The notes below the pieces were generated by a model that saw only the letters and a program-made list of their open reading frames with translations, was not told where the DNA came from and did no database searches. Below are positions 16,151 through 22,990 of a stretch of 64,000 nucleotides of DNA, piece by piece; positions within the stretch are counted from its first letter, which is position 1, and each line of letters begins with the position of its first letter. The stretch lies in assembly GCF_025949695.1 (NCBI RefSeq), contig NZ_JAPDFL010000001.1:3413501-3477500 (forward strand), written 5' to 3'. Both the position numbers and the translations under genes were made by a program. This DNA comes from Pararhodobacter zhoushanensis. Lineage in GTDB: Bacteria > Pseudomonadota > Alphaproteobacteria > Rhodobacterales > Rhodobacteraceae.

Positions 16151-17056
16151 GTGACCGACCCTGACTTCGCCCCGCGCACCGGGCATCCGCTGATCCTCGA
16201 ACCCGGCCTGCGGCTGGTGCTGGCCCCCAACGCCTCGCCAATGACCGAGCGCGGCACCAACACCTACCTCCTGGGGCAAGGCGCGGTAACCGTGATCGAC
16301 CCCGGCCCCGCCGACCCCGCGCATCTGGCGGCGATCATGGCCGCCCTCGCCCCGAAGGAACGCATAACCCAGATCCTTGTCACCCACGCGCACAAGGACC
16401 ACTCCCTCTCGCCCGGCCGCTGGCCGAGGCGACCGGCGCGCCGGTGCTGGCCTTTGGGGATGCGTCGGCAGGGCGGTCAGCCCGGATGGCCACCCTGACC
16501 GGAGCGGATATCGGCGGCGGCGAAGGGGTTGATGCCGGGTTCATGCCGGATGAGACCCTGCCCGATGGCATCACATTCGACGTTGCCGGCCGCCCAATGC
16601 AGGCAATCCACACGCCCGGGCATTTTGGCAATCACCTGTCGTTTCGCTGGGGCGACGCGCTTTTTTCCGGCGACCATGTGATGGGGTGGGCCCCCAGTCT
16701 GGTCTCGCCCCCGGATGGCGACCTGACGGACTTCATGGCCAGTCTTGATCGGCTCGAATCACTGGGCGCGTTGCGCTACTATCCGGGCCACGGGGCACCT
16801 GTCGTCGATGGACTGGCCCGCACCCGCGCATTGCGCCAGCACCGGCTCGGACGCGAGATCGTCGATTCGTGCTGCCGTGGCAGCCGGAGCCGCCACACTG
16901 AACGCGGTGACTGCGGCGGTCTATACCGACATCCCCCCGGCCCTGCTCCCTGCCGCCGCGCGCAACGTTCTGGCCCATCTGATCGATCTCGACGCCCGCG
17001 GGATGCTTGTTTTCAACGGCCCGCCGGGCCCCGACACACCCCTCTCTTCGCGCTGA
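16151..17056 (+). pseudogene. MBL-fold metallo-hydrolase with two compensating frameshifts
   Basis: Assembled from three pieces. Frame A (from ATG 16151) encodes MTDPDFAPRTGHPLILEPG to the metal motif LVTHAHKDHS. At about 16401-16405 (ACTCCCTCTC) one base appears missing: adding a C continues into the next frame as PLARPLAEATGAPVLAFGDAS. That frame runs through HTPGHFGNHLSF, LFSGDHVMGWAPS and YYPGHGAPV. Near 16857-16863 (GAGATCGTCGATTC) the reading returns to frame A (IRAAVAAGAATLNAVTAAVYTD) to the stop at 17056. The two shifts cancel, giving a 302-codon span. All zinc ligands of the LACTB2-like MBL family are present. Both flanking frames look conserved, so the frameshifts are very recent or are sequence errors. 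Confidence 0.8.
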
Positions 17057-17133
17057 GTTGCCGGTCTGAAAGGACCGGTTGAGGGCCCGTTTCAACGCCG
17101 TGACATTCGGGTAAAAAAAACGCTGAAATCCTC

Positions 17134-17172: not shown

Positions 17173-17247
17173 TCCGGCGTAGCTCAGCGGTAGAGCAGTT
17201 GACTGTTAATCAATTGGTCGTAGGTTCGATCCCTACCGCCGGAGCCA
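17173..17247 (+). tRNA. tRNA-Asn (anticodon GTT)
   Basis: 75 bases that fold as a cloverleaf: acceptor TCCGGCG/CGCCGGA, D arm GCTC...GAGC, anticodon stem GTTGA/TCAAT around loop CTGTTAA with anticodon GTT at 17205-17207, T arm GTAGG TTCGATC CCTAC, discriminator G and an encoded CCA at 17245-17247. All key invariant positions are present. It is flanked by a predicted promoter and terminator, so it is a single-gene transcript. Confidence 0.97.
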
Positions 17248-17679: not shown

Positions 17680-18414
17680 TTACCGAAACAAGAAACTGTC
17701 CGGCTGTTCGGCATCGAGGAAAAACTGAGCCATATCCGCTTCAGGAGGCAGACCGAAGTTCACGCCGACGGTACGAACCACATCGCGCAGACCGTCCTGG
17801 AGCGTTTCACGCAAGAGGCTGCGCACATAAGAATCTTCAAGCGCGATCTGCATGAAATTGCGAATTTCATCCAGATTCACCACGGGCTTCGGGTCACCAA
17901 AGTATCGAGAAAACTGTCGCGAGCCACTCAGTGCAGAGAGGACGGTTCCCTGCAGGTAGTCGGGTGAAATATCCGACTTCATAATGAAATCCTGGCACCC
18001 GTTTTTCATCGCGCTCACGGCGATGCGTTGATCGGCCTGCCCCGATATCATGATGGAAACGGCCCCGGACTGGCTTTTGTGGTTGCGAATGACGTCAAGT
18101 GCAGAAAGACCATCCGATCCCGGCATCTTGTAATCGATAAGAAACAGATCAAAATTCTGCCGATCCAAGCATTCCTTCAAGCCCTGAACAGATGTCGCTT
18201 CTTCGATGCGCAGCTTCAAATCGAGACCATTTCCCATCCGACAGATACGTTTGCGATCAAAGCTGCTGTCGTCCAGCACGAGTGTGCGAATTTCCGGCAG
18301 TTTCGCCAAGTCGACAGAGGAGAATTCAGGTGATTTTGGCGCCACGTTGATTTCCCCCTCTCGGTCAGTCTTCGCCTCGACTCTGTGCAAAATGTCCTTA
18401 GAAACCGTAAACAT
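17680..18414 (-). CDS. Response regulator with receiver domain and uncharacterised C-terminus
   Basis: 244 residues from the ATG at 18414; a TTG 30 bases upstream is also possible. A receiver domain spans ~43-165: acidic pair LDDSS, phospho-acceptor Asp94 in LFLIDYKMPG, Ser in MISGQAD, and Lys in FIMKSDIS (conserved lysine). The last ~75 residues (NFMQIALEDSYVRSLLRETLQDGLRDVV...) are helical and match no DNA-binding or GGDEF domain I know. It follows a histidine kinase by 57 bases and closes the stressosome gene set, so it is the likely output. Codon use is visibly less GC-biased than in neighbouring housekeeping genes. Confidence 0.85.
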   Translation of the reverse strand: MFTVSKDILHRVEAKTDREGEINVAPKSPEFSSVDLAKLPEIRTLVLDDSSFDRKRICRMGNGLDLKLRIEEATSVQGLKECLDRQNFDLFLIDYKMPGSDGLSALDVIRNHKSQSGAVSIMISGQADQRIAVSAMKNGCQDFIMKSDISPDYLQGTVLSALSGSRQFSRYFGDPKPVVNLDEIRNFMQIALEDSYVRSLLRETLQDGLRDVVRTVGVNFGLPPEADMAQFFLDAEQPDSFLFR

Positions 18415-18471
18415 GTCCGCCGGCCGCCACGAGGCGCTGTCCAACGGTCGAACAAATCTTTCGAAAATCCG

Positions 18472-19209
18472 CTACGTTTCTTCGCACCCATGGTCGGGAA
18501 ACCATAGCTTGAAGCCCACACCACGCCCGTCTGGCTGATCAACCCAGGCAAGGTGACCACCATGGACTTTCAAGATCTTATGGACATGCGCCAAGCCCAT
18601 GCCGCTTCCTTCCACCTCATCGCGCGACTTCAATGTTGTCATTGCGTGAAATATCCGTTCGCGGAATTCAGGCCGGACGCCGGGACCATCGTCGCGAAAG
18701 GACAGCACTGTTCCGCCGCCTTCTGATCCGGATTCGATCCAGATATGGTGCATGTCAGCATCGCGGTGGCGCACGGCGTTGGACAGCAAGGCACCCAGCA
18801 AGGTCAAAAGGTCCCGATCGCAGATGTCTATCGTCGGCGTCTCCAAGGCCACATTCATTTGAACATCGTGGGGAATTGGTTGGTCGGCACAAACAGTGGC
18901 AACCGCCGCCGCCAAATCACTTCTGCCGGTTTTTTGTCCTCGACCGATACGCGAATAGACCAGAAGATCGGAAAGCATCTGATCCAACCGTTTGGCATGG
19001 ACATTCAAAAGTTCAAGATTCTCGCCCAGCGTGCCCTTGATGCTGTGTCCGGCCGCCTCAAGATCCTCTGCAATCCATTGTGGCACCTCGATCAAGGCGC
19101 GGATGGAATTCTTCAGATCATGGCTGATCACATAGGCGAAATCGTCGTCGTCCCCGCTCGCATTGGCGAGCGGTCCGGTCCCAGAGCTGACGCTCGATTG
19201 ACTGTGCAC
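18472..19209 (-). CDS. Small cytoplasmic histidine kinase without sensor domain
   Basis: 245 residues, starting at a GTG (19207-19209) with GAAGAAGG upstream. There is no transmembrane segment and only ~25 residues before the HisKA box FAYVISHDLKNSIRAL (His30). HATPase_c follows with N box LLGALLSNAVRH, G1 SFRDDGPGV, and G2 GSGMGLAHVHKIL. With no sensory part, it must get its signal from a partner, most likely the upstream stressosome proteins or the other kinase. The response regulator lies directly downstream. Confidence 0.88.
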   Translation of the reverse strand: MHSQSSVSSGTGPLANASGDDDDFAYVISHDLKNSIRALIEVPQWIAEDLEAAGHSIKGTLGENLELLNVHAKRLDQMLSDLLVYSRIGRGQKTGRSDLAAAVATVCADQPIPHDVQMNVALETPTIDICDRDLLTLLGALLSNAVRHRDADMHHIWIESGSEGGGTVLSFRDDGPGVRPEFRERIFHAMTTLKSRDEVEGSGMGLAHVHKILKVHGGHLAWVDQPDGRGVGFKLWFPDHGCEET

Positions 19210-19465
19210 GGTCGAAACCTTCTTCGAGATCTCGCCCCGGTATACGCTGAAAAGCGCTACGAAACCGTTAAGGCAAGTTGCGCACGAACCGCGCAGCGGT
19301 TTGATTAAGCCGCTCGCCCTGCGAGTCGCGCGGCCCCGGCGGTTCAGCTACGGCCTCCAGTCATTCAAACCGTTTCAGGGGCGGCGTTGAAGAACCCGTT
19401 GATAGCGTTTTTGGCCGAAGCTTTCGTCATCTGTCGACATTGCTGTTCGGATTATCGGCGCAGAT

Positions 19466-20671
19466 TCAGTCTACAAATCTTTTCAACGCAATGGAAAAGG
19501 AGCTTCCGACACCTTGTCGTGACGTAAGACTGAGTTCGCCGCCCAGATTGGCCGCGATTCGTTTGCACAGGGCAAGCCCGATGCCGCTTCCCGGATAGGT
19601 GTCATAGGTATGCAGGCGCTGAAACAGGGTAAAGATCCGCTCAAAATGTTGCGGAGCTATGCCGATGCCGTTGTCACTGACGGTCACCCGGACTCGCGTG
19701 GGCTGGATCTTTGCCGTGATCAGGACGCGCGGTGGCCGACCGGGAGAGCAATACTTTATCGCGTTTGAAATCAGGTTTTGAAACAAAAGCTTGACCTGCA
19801 TCGGGTCACCCATGATCGACGGAACATCGGCCATTGTGATTGTCGCCCCCGACCGGATGATGTCGAAACGCAGATCCTCCAGTATATCGTGCAGCACGCC
19901 GTTAAGATCGACCCGCCCGAGCGGCGCCTGATGATCGAGGCAACGCGAATACGCCAGAACGTCATCGACCAGCCTGCCCATTCGCACGGAAGTCATGCGG
20001 ATCAGCGCCAGAAGTTCTGCCGCATCCGTATCGAGGTGCTCGCCCAGGGAAATTTCCAGCTCATCGGAGAGCATGGTGATGGTGTTGGAGGGCGATTTCA
20101 GATCATGCGATATCGCGTAAGTAAACTCGGCCTGCTCACGGTTTGCCTGGCGCAAATGGTCTAACGTCTTGTCCAGGACTTCGGTTTTTTTCAACAAATC
20201 GCGCGTTCGGTCAGCGACGAGCTTGTCGAGCGTGTCCCGCTGGGCGGCCAGTTGAGCCGACGCCTGTCGCAGTTCGGCCTCTGCCTTCTGGCGGTCGGCG
20301 ACCTCTTGCAGCAGCCGCGGGACGGTCGTTTTGTAGCCCTTCAGGGCCATGTCATACACGGACAGAAACTCGACCACGAAACTCTCGATCTGGTCGCGGC
20401 ACTGTTGTGAATGACCGTGGTCGACCAGAAGCGCTTGCGATGCAGAGAAGTGTATATCCATGATTTCCGTTAGTTGGATATCCTCAGGCAGGGCTTCACG
20501 CGCCAGGGAATAGGCCGCCATCAAACCCGCTTCGCTGTCCTCTTCAACGCATCTGCGCAACGCCTCCTCATACCGCCGGGCTATGGTCTGCGGCTCGGTG
20601 CCTGCTGGATGGTGGTGCGCCGAGTCCGTCGCGTCCGCAGAAGTCTGGTGTGGGGGCTGTGACTTTGTCAT
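19466..20671 (-). CDS. Cytoplasmic histidine kinase with an RsbU-like N-terminal domain
   Basis: 401 residues, starting 4 bases inside the end of rsbX (ATGA overlap). Residues ~28-120 (ARRYEEALRRCVEEDSEAGLMAAYSLAREAL...) resemble the N-terminal dimerisation domain of RsbU, the part bound by RsbT in Bacillus. A coiled coil (~125-180) leads to HisKA (FTYAISHDLKSPSNTI, His189) and HATPase_c (N box LISNAIKYC, G1 VSDNGIGI, G2 GSGIGLALCKRIA). The layout suggests that RsbT, released from the stressosome, binds this kinase instead of an RsbU phosphatase. That is inference from domain similarity and gene order. 256 bases without a gene separate it from the next kinase. Confidence 0.85.
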   Translation of the reverse strand: MTKSQPPHQTSADATDSAHHHPAGTEPQTIARRYEEALRRCVEEDSEAGLMAAYSLAREALPEDIQLTEIMDIHFSASQALLVDHGHSQQCRDQIESFVVEFLSVYDMALKGYKTTVPRLLQEVADRQKAEAELRQASAQLAAQRDTLDKLVADRTRDLLKKTEVLDKTLDHLRQANREQAEFTYAISHDLKSPSNTITMLSDELEISLGEHLDTDAAELLALIRMTSVRMGRLVDDVLAYSRCLDHQAPLGRVDLNGVLHDILEDLRFDIIRSGATITMADVPSIMGDPMQVKLLFQNLISNAIKYCSPGRPPRVLITAKIQPTRVRVTVSDNGIGIAPQHFERIFTLFQRLHTYDTYPGSGIGLALCKRIAANLGGELSLTSRQGVGSSFSIALKRFVD

Positions 20672-21279
20672 TGCAGGGCCCTCAGCTCGATCACCAGAAC
20701 GAGGGAATCATCGTCGGGGCGGCGGAACGCGGGCAGGATCTGCTCGGCTGCCGCCGCGGCCGTCACGTCGGGTGAGATGTCTTGCGCGAACTCACGCCGC
20801 ACGCCGTCGGTTGTCAGCACGATCAGCGAACCGGGCCTGAGCAACTGCGATTGCGGTGCGACGCCGTTGAAGGTGAGGCCCAGCGTGCCGCCGATCCGGG
20901 TAAGTCCGCCCTCCGGTGTCCGACCGCCATCCGCGTGACCAAACAGCGTGCCGTCAACATCGCCCACCGCGGCCCATGTCATCATGCCCGTCTCATCATT
21001 GATCCTGATCAGGGCCAGCGCGGCGCCGCGGCCGCGTTTGAGCGCCTGATGGCAACGCTGAAAATCCGCCTCCAGATGCCCGGTCGATGCGTCTAGCGTT
21101 TTCAGACACAGTTCGGTTGTCTCGGCCGCCTTGTGCCCACTCCCCGAGCCATCGGCGACGGCGAACAACAGACCATCCGGTTGGCGCCAGATGCCATAGC
21201 CATCACCGCTGGGCTCATGCGGTTTCTTGGCGAAGGACGTCACCGCCCAGTTGAGCATCAAACCGCAGCCGGCAAGCAT
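20668..21279 (-). CDS. rsbX: RsbX-like PP2C phosphatase
   Basis: 203 residues from the ATG at 21279 (G-rich ribosome-binding site GGGGG); an ATG at 21309 would overlap rsbT and has no site. FAVADGSGSGHKAAETTELC is the metal-binding PP2C/SpoIIE-like motif and parallels the VADGLGSG motif of B. subtilis RsbX. RGRGAALALIRINDETGMMTWAAVGDV and IVLTTDGVRREF complete the fold. RsbX resets the stressosome by dephosphorylating RsbR and RsbS. Position after rsbRST supports this. Confidence 0.88.
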   Translation of the reverse strand: MLAGCGLMLNWAVTSFAKKPHEPSGDGYGIWRQPDGLLFAVADGSGSGHKAAETTELCLKTLDASTGHLEADFQRCHQALKRGRGAALALIRINDETGMMTWAAVGDVDGTLFGHADGGRTPEGGLTRIGGTLGLTFNGVAPQSQLLRPGSLIVLTTDGVRREFAQDISPDVTAAAAAEQILPAFRRPDDDSLVLVIELRALQ

Positions 21280-21296
21280 GATTTCGCCCCCGGCGT

Positions 21297-21713
21297 TCAA
21301 TGCAACCATTTGACAACCGTCACTTTGACGCCTTTGCCCGGCTCCGAGGCGATATGGAAGTCATCGACCATCCGCCGCGTCCCGGGCAGACCAAGCCCCA
21401 GTGATCTGGCGGTCGAAAACCCGTCAGTCATGGCGGCTTCCAGGTTTTCGATGCCCGGCCCGCTGTCCTTGGCGACAACGCGCAAGCCGCGCTTGCTGCC
21501 CCGGTTCACCAGCGACAGTTCGATCGTTCCGGTTTTGGCGTAGTTGACGATGTTGCGCGCCAGCTCGGAAATGGAGGTGGCGATCAGGGCCTGATCCGGT
21601 CGGCTGAAGCCCATATCGGCAGCGACCGTGCGCCCCTGTTGGCGGGCAGAGACAATATCGGCATCGGACGCAATCTGACAGGCCATGACGATATCGCTTT
21701 CAACCGTGTTCAT
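21297..21713 (-). CDS. rsbT: RsbT-like serine/threonine kinase (GHKL switch kinase)
   Basis: 138 residues. GHKL ATPase motifs: SELARNIVNYAKTG (N box), AKDSGPGIEN (G1) and SLGLGLPGTRRMVDDFHI (G2). This is the single-domain anti-sigma-type kinase. In Bacillus, RsbT is held in the stressosome, phosphorylates RsbR and RsbS on signal, and leaves to activate its partner. It overlaps the rsbS stop by 4 bases, indicating translational coupling. Confidence 0.93.
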   Translation of the reverse strand: MNTVESDIVMACQIASDADIVSARQQGRTVAADMGFSRPDQALIATSISELARNIVNYAKTGTIELSLVNRGSKRGLRVVAKDSGPGIENLEAAMTDGFSTARSLGLGLPGTRRMVDDFHIASEPGKGVKVTVVKWLH

Positions 21714-22072
21714 GGCACGTGCCTTGGGCCCAGCAACGCCATGCCTGCATCAAGGTCCAGCGCCGTGGCGACCTTCGGCAGCGACAGGCCCAACAGCACC
21801 ATCGACAGGGCCACATCGGCCTGTATGCCGACGATCACGGTCTTTGCCCCGCGCAACTGGATCGCGGCGGCAATATCGGACAATGTCCGCGTGCCAAAAC
21901 TGTCGAGCACGTCCAGCGCGCTCACATCAATGACGACCCCTGTGGCATTGACCGAGAACACCTTGTCCAACAGGTCCTGTTGCAAATTCAGCAGGTCGCT
22001 GTCTGACAGCGCATCCTGAACCGACACGATCAGCACCTTTCCTTGCTGCAAAATCGGCACACGGATGGTCAT
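21710..22072 (-). CDS. rsbS: RsbS-like STAS scaffold protein
   Basis: 120 residues, a single STAS domain. VIDVSALDVLDSFGTRTLSD aligns with the RsbS phosphorylation segment of B. subtilis; the phospho-acceptor is Ser58 (LDSF). The end, ATALDLDAGMALL, also parallels RsbS. It would form the core of the stressosome with RsbR and be phosphorylated by RsbT. It starts 3 bases after the rsbR stop. Confidence 0.93.
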   Translation of the reverse strand: MTIRVPILQQGKVLIVSVQDALSDSDLLNLQQDLLDKVFSVNATGVVIDVSALDVLDSFGTRTLSDIAAAIQLRGAKTVIVGIQADVALSMVLLGLSLPKVATALDLDAGMALLGPRHVP

Positions 22073-22075
22073 GCT

Positions 22076-22990
22076 CTACCTCGCCAGGATCGCTTCGGCT
22101 TCGATGATGCCGGATTCCAGATCGCCGGCGGTGTTCAGATCAGCCCCGATCACACCGATCTTGACCAAAGACTGCGCCACATCTGACGAGACCCCGGTCA
22201 GGATCGAGCGCGCGCCCATCAACCGGGCGGCCTGCATGGACTGGATCAGGTGGTTGGCCACCGAGCTGTCCACGTCGGCCACCCCGGTAATGTCGAGCAC
22301 CACCGCGCGGGCATGAAACTGGCGAATGCCTTCGAGCAGCGACACGGTCAGGCTGCGCGCCCGGGACCGGTCCAGCATCCCGACGACCGGGATCAACAGC
22401 AGCCCCTGCTTGAGCTTGAGCACCGGCGTGGGCAGTTCGCTCATCAGGCGTTGTTGCCGCTCGATCGTTGCTTCGCGCGTCTCGACATAGGTTTCGAGCG
22501 CCAGCGCCATGTCGAAATGGGCGATCTTGGCCAGCGACAGGAACAGCCGGAAGGCCGTCGCCGGGTCTTCGGCCATCATGTCGCCGATCAGGGTGCCCAG
22601 CCGATGCAGATAATAGGCGTAAGAGCCGATATAGAGCGTGGGGGTGATCCCCGCCACTTCATGGATGCCGCCGATGCGGCGACGGTCGGCAACGTAGGCA
22701 TCGTCAAATTCGGCCGAGATAAGGTCCGTAAAGTATTTTTTCTGCCCCGCCTTCACCTGCTCGATCTGACCTTTGGACGTGAATTTCTGTGCCGCGTTAT
22801 CAAAGCGCAGAATATGGGCATAGAATTCCTCAATGATCTGGTCGGCCACCTGATCGCTGATCGGACCAAGCCTTGCTGCCTGATCCCGGTCGACCTGCCC
22901 CAGATCGAACCACGCCAGCGCATCATGGGTGGCGTTGCTGGTCGCGCTGCTGTGATGAGCCCTGTGAGACCCGGAGAGGAGTTCATTCAT
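22076..22990 (-). CDS. rsbR: RsbR-like stressosome sensor with globin-type N-terminal domain
   Basis: 304 residues. Residues ~25-180 look like a globin-coupled-sensor/protoglobin fold: ISDQVADQIIEEFYAHIL, then RRRIGGIHEVAGITPTLYIGSYAYYL, where His110 is the expected proximal heme ligand. Residues ~188-300 form a STAS domain. The two RsbT target positions of B. subtilis RsbR (Thr171, Thr205) correspond here to Ser242 (DVDSSVANH) and Ser274 (VAQSLVKIG). Heme-globin RsbR proteins are known from Vibrio vulnificus and probably sense oxygen or redox. It is the first gene of the rsbRSTX-kinase set; the upstream 256 bases should hold the promoter. Confidence 0.9.
   Translation of the reverse strand: MNELLSGSHRAHHSSATSNATHDALAWFDLGQVDRDQAARLGPISDQVADQIIEEFYAHILRFDNAAQKFTSKGQIEQVKAGQKKYFTDLISAEFDDAYVADRRRIGGIHEVAGITPTLYIGSYAYYLHRLGTLIGDMMAEDPATAFRLFLSLAKIAHFDMALALETYVETREATIERQQRLMSELPTPVLKLKQGLLLIPVVGMLDRSRARSLTVSLLEGIRQFHARAVVLDITGVADVDSSVANHLIQSMQAARLMGARSILTGVSSDVAQSLVKIGVIGADLNTAGDLESGIIEAEAILAR

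Follow-up and report, generated by a model that had tools for sequence, protein, structure and literature searches.

A globin-coupled stressosome operon of Pararhodobacter zhoushanensis with an RsbU_N histidine kinase, an apparent receiver-gene remnant and a downstream kinase-regulator pair

Gene content of the stressosome locus

We analyzed a 64,000-nucleotide stretch of the Pararhodobacter zhoushanensis genome (RefSeq assembly GCF_025949695.1, contig NZ_JAPDFL010000001.1, positions 3,413,501 to 3,477,500 of the forward strand), referred to here as the window, and within it a stressosome operon at window positions 17680-22990. Seven open reading frames (ORFs) were confirmed at this locus, all on the minus strand: rsbR, rsbS, rsbT, rsbX, a histidine kinase with an RsbU_N domain (HK1), a sensor-less histidine kinase (HK2) and a response regulator (RR). 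Between the two kinase genes, the usual partner gene of HK1, which encodes a receiver, seems to survive only as a stump. The features of the locus are as follows.

rsbR, 22076..22990, minus strand: protoglobin domain at residues 22-173 (about 22472-22927) followed by a STAS domain (Pfam, match to 7o0i, alignment)
rsbS, 21710..22072, minus strand: STAS scaffold with Ser58 (Pfam, alignment)
rsbT, 21297..21713, minus strand: switch kinase with the motif DIVxARQxGR (Pfam HATPase_c/HATPase_c_2, alignment, survey)
rsbX, 20668..21309, minus strand: feedback phosphatase of the SpoIIE/PP2C type (Pfam)
HK1, 19466..20671, minus strand: RsbU_N at residues 33-109 (about 20345-20575), a long helix, HisKA with His189, and HATPase_c (Pfam, alignment A2, model)
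Receiver-gene 5' remnant, 19384..19464, minus strand: 27 codons directly after HK1 (24.7 bits in the best of nine sub-profiles)
HK2, 18472..19209, minus strand: sensor-less histidine kinase (Pfam, alignment A3 of 26 sequences, RR partner in 11 of 11 loci)
RR, 17680..18345, minus strand: receiver with Asp71, extended at the C-terminus by about 80 residues (Pfam, alignment A1)
Conserved C-terminal tail of RR, [DE]-x-F-x-F, 17683..17700, minus strand: near the end of the protein in 27 of 30 sequences, including the window's

These ORFs and their Pfam domains agree with an earlier note on this DNA, which had placed seven genes at the same positions and on the same strand, and had named among them an RsbR with a globin-like N-terminus and His110 as haem ligand, an RsbS with a Ser58 site, RsbT, RsbX and a kinase with an RsbU-like N-terminus. 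The genes rsbS, rsbT and rsbX lie directly downstream of rsbR in this order. A gap of 3 base pairs (bp) separates rsbR from rsbS, and overlaps of 4, 13 and 4 bp join rsbS to rsbT, rsbT to rsbX, and rsbX to HK1. The note's description of the first five genes as coupled by 4-base overlaps or gaps of up to 17 bases agrees with this; for the 13-bp overlap of rsbT and rsbX, a gap as in the note would result from a later RsbX start. Farther downstream the gaps are wider, 256 bp between HK1 and HK2 and 126 bp between HK2 and RR. All seven genes are also present in the P. zhoushanensis locus used for comparison, where DNA identity is 92% over the stretch with rsbR to HK1 and 83% over HK2-RR.

RsbR matches Protoglobin (E 1.9e-33, 116.1 bits) and STAS (44.4 bits), both above cut-off. 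Its best solved relative is the RsbR of the Vibrio vulnificus stressosome, 7o0i (residues 23-295, E 3e-35), whose histidine aligns with His110; a matching distal tyrosine, Tyr57, is also present by sequence comparison. In the RsbR, RsbS, RsbT and RsbX alignments, which leave out L009 for its frame errors and L012 for want of rsbRSTX, Tyr57 and His110 are both kept in the window, L008, L010, L011 and L112. The ligand histidine is replaced by Asn in L111 and L113 (genomes G021 and G189, same family) and by Tyr in the more distant L146 and L148, all of them beside RsbU_N kinases, and the RsbR proteins of these four loci are perhaps apo-globin sensors. The window's RsbR likely binds haem, as predicted from its residues; haem binding is not general in the family, because of the replacements in these four loci. 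By the phosphosites of Bacillus, RsbR carries Arg208 at the first STAS phosphosite, where all other aligned relatives except L008 have Ser, and Ser242 at the second. RsbT had no match among PDB sequences at E 0.01.

The RsbU_N domain of HK1 scored 33.0 bits against a Pfam cut-off of 25.5 in a profile hidden Markov model search, and HisKA and HATPase_c were recognized as well. The four best PDB sequence matches of the HK1 N-terminus are RsbU N-terminal structures (best E 0.012). Four RsbU positions, Glu24, Tyr28, Ile74 and Ile78, are named as RsbT contacts in PMC12143880 (here and below, the cited papers are represented by excerpts). Glu47 of HK1 aligns with Glu24 and is nearly invariant in alignment A2 (51 sequences), and Val100 is a conservative change of Ile74. 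In the structure model of HK1 (mean predicted local distance difference test score, pLDDT, 83.3), helices span residues 27-44, 47-60, 67-84 and 89-212, and the last continues unbroken into the kinase.

We surveyed RsbU_N and RsbT across genomes. Among 390 genomes of the window's order, RsbU_N occurs in four, and RsbT matches above 160 bits occur in the same four; any RsbT match at all was found in 34 genomes (four above 160 bits, 12 at 57-88 bits, 18 lower). Among 367 sampled genomes of the class, five including this one have RsbU_N. Three of the other four RsbU_N genes sit beside rsbT and themselves encode kinases, two of these after a full rsbRSTX. Within the genus, 1 of 18 genomes has a full-length HK1 match, namely this one. 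Together, these data suggest that RsbT likely acts on HK1. The earlier note had raised this as a possibility; it stands as the best reading, and the idea is already in print (PMC9237108; PMC12143880). The note would have been refuted by an RsbR N-terminus lacking any globin-fold match or by a kinase N-terminus unlike RsbT-binding domains, and neither comparison refutes it.

Receiver remnant and the HK2-RR pair

A receiver-only gene of 125-140 codons lies directly 3' of HK1 in all six close relatives that we compared outside the Pararhodobacter lineage (L010, the Leisingera locus L011, L012, L111, L112 and L113; L008 and L009 were left out as belonging to the window's lineage). No intact receiver-only gene directly follows the window's HK1. 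Instead, the HK1-HK2 gap holds the 27-codon remnant, which the earlier note had missed. We built profiles from 12 receiver-only relatives and, to allow for the choice of an N-terminal profile, ran nine overlapping sub-profiles. At 24.7 bits, the remnant ranked first when the window was cut into 2,976 overlapping six-frame pieces, and its place, its strand and the end of the gene that it represents are those expected; the next unrelated place reached 15.9 bits and the receiver of RR 10.3, and among 9,000 translations of 3,000 shuffles the best and second-best scores were 19.3 and 10.1 bits. A profile restricted to residues 1-36, picked after BLAST, gave the remnant 24.5 bits; shuffles reached 8.8 and other places in the window 4.8.

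Separation is poorer with the full-length profile, as would be expected for so short a stump (15.1 bits, compared with 16.6 for RR and 12.2 for an unrelated stretch). BLAST gave the remnant 30.0 bits against 26.6 for the best of 2,000 shuffles, and this score is not specific, as an unrelated stretch near 2.7-3.0 kilobases (kb), within an ORF of 852 codons on the opposite strand, also reached 30.0. The phospho-acceptor part of the receiver gene was not found in the window. The remnant is shared by the 97%-identical contig L009, and L008 has none. HK1 itself is under purifying selection and is not decaying along with its receiver, given that the ratio of nonsynonymous to synonymous divergence (dN/dS) relative to P. 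zhoushanensis is 0.10-0.35 for all seven genes.

HK2 matches HATPase_c in Pfam, with HisKA just below cut-off (25.3 versus 26.9 bits), and keeps His30, Asn144, Asp173 and the glycine boxes in alignment A3. RR most likely has 221 residues rather than 254, starting at GTG 18345, because most homologues begin there in alignment A1. The receiver residues D25, D26, D71, S101 and K123 are invariant in this alignment, from which P0003 was left out. No DNA-binding or enzyme domain was recognized in the extension, and the C-terminal part was modeled with low confidence (pLDDT blocks of at most 65). In the tail, D216, F218 and F220 are nearly invariant, and two of the three sequences that lack the motif are truncated.

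HK2 and RR are adjacent and in the same order in all 11 loci of the same family that we compared (L114-L124), which were chosen from the best RR matches and are not a random sample. No RsbR, RsbS, RsbT or RsbX match was detected in the fetched stretches of these loci. The named HK2 homologues come from roseobacters, for example Roseovarius and Sulfitobacter. Compared to P. zhoushanensis, DNA identity falls from 0.88-0.92 along HK1 to 0.79-0.87 along HK2-RR, and synonymous divergence (dS) rises from 0.14-0.36 for the stressosome side through HK1 to 0.60-0.62 for HK2-RR; therefore, the two sides have had different histories. The earlier picture, in which one stressosome module feeds both kinases and the regulator, is not supported in that form: HK1 has a receiver of its own in the six relatives, and HK2-RR is separately distributed and more diverged.

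In Mangrovicoccus ximenensis (L012, 9965-12180), an HK1 without the start of RsbU_N is followed by an intact receiver gene and then by a 5' fragment of HK2, and no rsbRSTX was found at this locus, which is a decaying form of the module. This arrangement suggests an older order of HK1, receiver, HK2. An HK2 search (E 1e-25) of six further genomes that encode a relative of HK1 returned a similar-size HK2-like kinase elsewhere in G021, only larger kinases in four genomes, and nothing in Mangrovicoccus.

Some HK2-RR loci contain further signaling genes. A solute-binding-like protein, a large kinase and a second regulator stand beside HK2-RR in L123 (8180-14582) and L114 (5484-12299), and L123 also has a receiver-only gene. 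The domain tests for solute binding and HAMP kinase were run on the L123 proteins, of which the L114 proteins are cluster mates; a ligand-sensing phosphorelay is possible at these two loci. The neighbors of HK2-RR in L115 are a PAS kinase and a receiver-only gene.

Several observations concern the surroundings of the operon. A tRNA-Asn gene lies at 17173-17247, just downstream of RR; because similarity to P. zhoushanensis stops right after RR, a chromosomal junction may lie there. At 16151-17082, a hydrolase-like coding stretch, judged by eye, is broken across overlapping frames, either as a pseudogene or through sequence errors. Contig L009 (JAPCWB010000004.1, labeled Novosphingobium sp. MW5) aligns with the window over 19.2 kb at 97.2% identity but with 205 gap openings; it probably contains many frame errors and is either mislabeled or a contaminant. 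A promoter and terminator scan performed at about chance level (2 found versus 1.8 expected and 6 found versus 5.6 expected). We rejected a plasmid-borne module: among 72,556 plasmid records, none matched HK1 over 80% of its length, 24 matched RsbT at <60% identity and came from other lineages, and four matched RR over the receiver part only.

Proposed signaling route and alternatives

We propose that the RsbR/RsbS shell holds RsbT until a ligand or redox change at the haem-globin shifts the stressosome to an altered state and frees RsbT, with RsbX resetting the complex. Free RsbT would bind the RsbU_N bundle of HK1 and the coiled coil that follows it, and thereby change the kinase activity of the HK1 dimer, much as Bacillus RsbT acts on RsbU. 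Ancestrally, HK1 would have passed its phosphoryl group to the receiver-only protein encoded next door. In this lineage that receiver gene appears to have decayed, and the operon continues into HK2-RR, a pair with an independent existence in related bacteria; therefore, the receiver that takes the output would be a non-cognate one. It could be RR, which would work by contact with other proteins, perhaps with its D-x-F-x-F tail, or it could be a paralogous receiver encoded at another place in the genome. Domains, catalytic residues, gene order, the remnant and the separate distribution of HK2-RR are read directly from sequence, whereas haem binding, RsbT release, RsbT-HK1 binding, every phosphotransfer step and the ancestral order are inferred. 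We consider this proposal as a whole to be about evenly balanced between right and wrong.

Several observations weigh against it. The RsbU contacts Tyr28 and Ile78 correspond to Met51 and Ser104 in HK1, where a tyrosine common in the HK1 family sits three residues past Met51. The best 50 of 534 matches in a fold search with the HK1 model were kinase cores or proteins holding one, and no RsbU was among them; because the matches listed were kinase cores, the search says nothing on RsbU_N. Weaker RsbT-like genes (57-88 bits) occur without RsbU_N in 12 of the 390 genomes of the order; the one of these that was inspected, L128, has a different gene set. In the class sample, G419 has RsbU_N and no rsbT on its short contig, where the gene runs off the contig. 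The more distant RsbU_N kinases of L145, L146 and L148 show no adjoining receiver-only match, and that of L148 carries a receiver domain of its own; for this reason, we infer the ancestral order for the close relatives only. Finally, the phospho-acceptor helix of HK1 is nearly that of its paralogue and resembles those of kinases paired with receiver-only proteins, unlike that of HK2, which speaks against RR as the target of HK1.

Two destinations for the HK1 signal have to be weighed, and we give them equal weight. HK1 may still signal to the receiver-only paralogue encoded with another sensor kinase elsewhere in the genome (G000:C1, about 852.2-854.0 kb), with HK2-RR a mere neighbor, a serious alternative that we nevertheless think less likely than not. 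That sensor kinase shares 44% identity with HK1 across the core, has an almost identical phospho-acceptor helix, and is followed by an intact 134-residue receiver; HK2-RR is found without nearby stressosome genes and, by its dS values, is more diverged from P. zhoushanensis than the stressosome side. On the other side stand the retention of HK2-RR behind HK1 in P. zhoushanensis and the HK2 fragment directly behind HK1 and its receiver in Mangrovicoccus. The second possibility, just as doubtful, is that HK1 has been retargeted to RR in a single phosphorelay, with RR fed by HK1 and either fed or drained by HK2. No other receiver of the cluster is complete, and RR retains its receiver residues; moreover, purifying selection continued to act on HK1 as the receiver gene next to it, on the HK2 side, decayed. 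In addition, equal-sized longest contigs were found for homologues of HK1 and RR (9978 and 53449 bases) and of HK1 and HK2 (8882 and 460800 bases), a hint that these genes travel together, although equal length does no more than suggest a shared contig. However, the specificity helix of HK1 has not shifted towards that of HK2.

The sensing steps have alternatives of their own, both of which we regard as improbable. The globin of Bacillus RsbR is a non-haem domain, and the window's RsbR might likewise act as an apo domain rather than as a haem sensor. Replacement of the ligand histidine in L111, L113, L146 and L148 makes haem seem dispensable in the family, but the window and the four loci L008, L010, L011 and L112 retain both the histidine and the distal tyrosine. 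Alternatively, RsbT may leave the RsbU_N domain of HK1 unbound, and HK1 would be controlled otherwise, for example through phosphorylation by RsbT. HK1 does not retain two of the four contacts named for RsbU, and in V. vulnificus the excerpts of PMC9237108 report no positive interaction of RsbT with D1 and suggest phosphorylation, although no RsbU_N was detected in D1. The side-by-side occurrence of RsbU_N and rsbT argues against this explanation and for the binding of RsbT to HK1 that we propose.

Relation to known systems and significance

Globin rsbRSTX modules are described in PMC9237108, where the likely target of RsbT is the RsbU_N that downstream proteins carry in some alpha-, beta- and gammaproteobacteria; phosphorelays of HisKA and receiver proteins downstream of globin rsbRSTX are described there as well, with Ruegeria named (Heinz et al. 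2022, PMC9237108). The operon described here has the same rsbR-S-T-X order, a globin RsbR, and downstream HisKA and receiver proteins. It differs in that the receiver-only gene is decayed and that the genes after it encode a kinase without a sensor domain and a regulator with a tail; the paper's figure of eleven architectures, which lies outside this comparison, may include the same order. In PMC12143880, histidine kinases and diguanylate cyclases with RsbU N-terminal domains are proposed to be RsbT-activated through a coiled-coil linker. HK1 has in common with these kinases the RsbU_N domain, the long helix, the kinase part and an rsbT in the same operon, while the kinase example given there is an AlphaFold2 model of another, gammaproteobacterial kinase. 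The oxygen-sensing stressosome of V. vulnificus and V. brasiliensis (PMC9237108; PMC4976288) shares the proximal histidine and distal tyrosine, and the output in V. vulnificus is two-component; unlike HK1, D1 of V. vulnificus has no RsbU_N detected in the excerpts of PMC9237108.

As the earlier note had stated, no sigma-B-type factor was recognized: five matches to the SigB/F/G-type profile TIGR02980 were found genome-wide, the best at 132.5 bits, and none exceeded the cut-off of 234.35 (the genome is 97% complete). The note also gave an RsbU phosphatase as absent; the lack of other RsbV-, RsbW- or RsbU-like parts is correct for the window but not for the genome, which leads us to reject an organism without other partner-switching parts. 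A REC-PP2C phosphatase at about 524.3-525.6 kb of G000:C1 (L125) resembles RbaY of Rhodobacter capsulatus, and an RsbV/RsbW-like pair at about 656.5-657.4 kb (L126) resembles RbaVW. The STAS, RsbW-type and REC-PP2C kinds of the RbaVWY system (PMC3999984) are thus encoded elsewhere in this genome; they are not beside stressosome genes, and the phosphatase carries REC rather than RsbU_N.

The general wiring, in which a globin rsbRSTX is combined with RsbU_N kinases as RsbT targets, is not new, because it has already been proposed in PMC9237108 and PMC12143880. New here are the decayed receiver after HK1 and the HK2-RR appendage. Among the matches listed in a literature search that did not cover figures or supplements, none dealt with a Pararhodobacter stressosome, the decayed receiver, or the HK2-RR pair.

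The switching of a histidine kinase by RsbT through RsbU_N is a proposal in print (PMC9237108; PMC12143880) for which the excerpts of the two papers give no direct test on a kinase, and this operon offers a compact case with soluble proteins. The decayed receiver is a natural experiment on the fate of an orphaned yet conserved kinase, and the D-x-F-x-F tail marks an uncharacterized output common to other regulators of the family. The locus may even be a natural rewiring, unlikely as we consider it, in which a stressosome-driven kinase lost its own receiver and was joined to HK2-RR, whose regulator acts by the C-terminal D-x-F-x-F peptide. If this is true, the rewiring would add a protein-contact regulator as a third kind of stressosome output besides sigma-factor release and cyclic-di-GMP, of a kind that in other members of the family is found next to kinases with different sensors.

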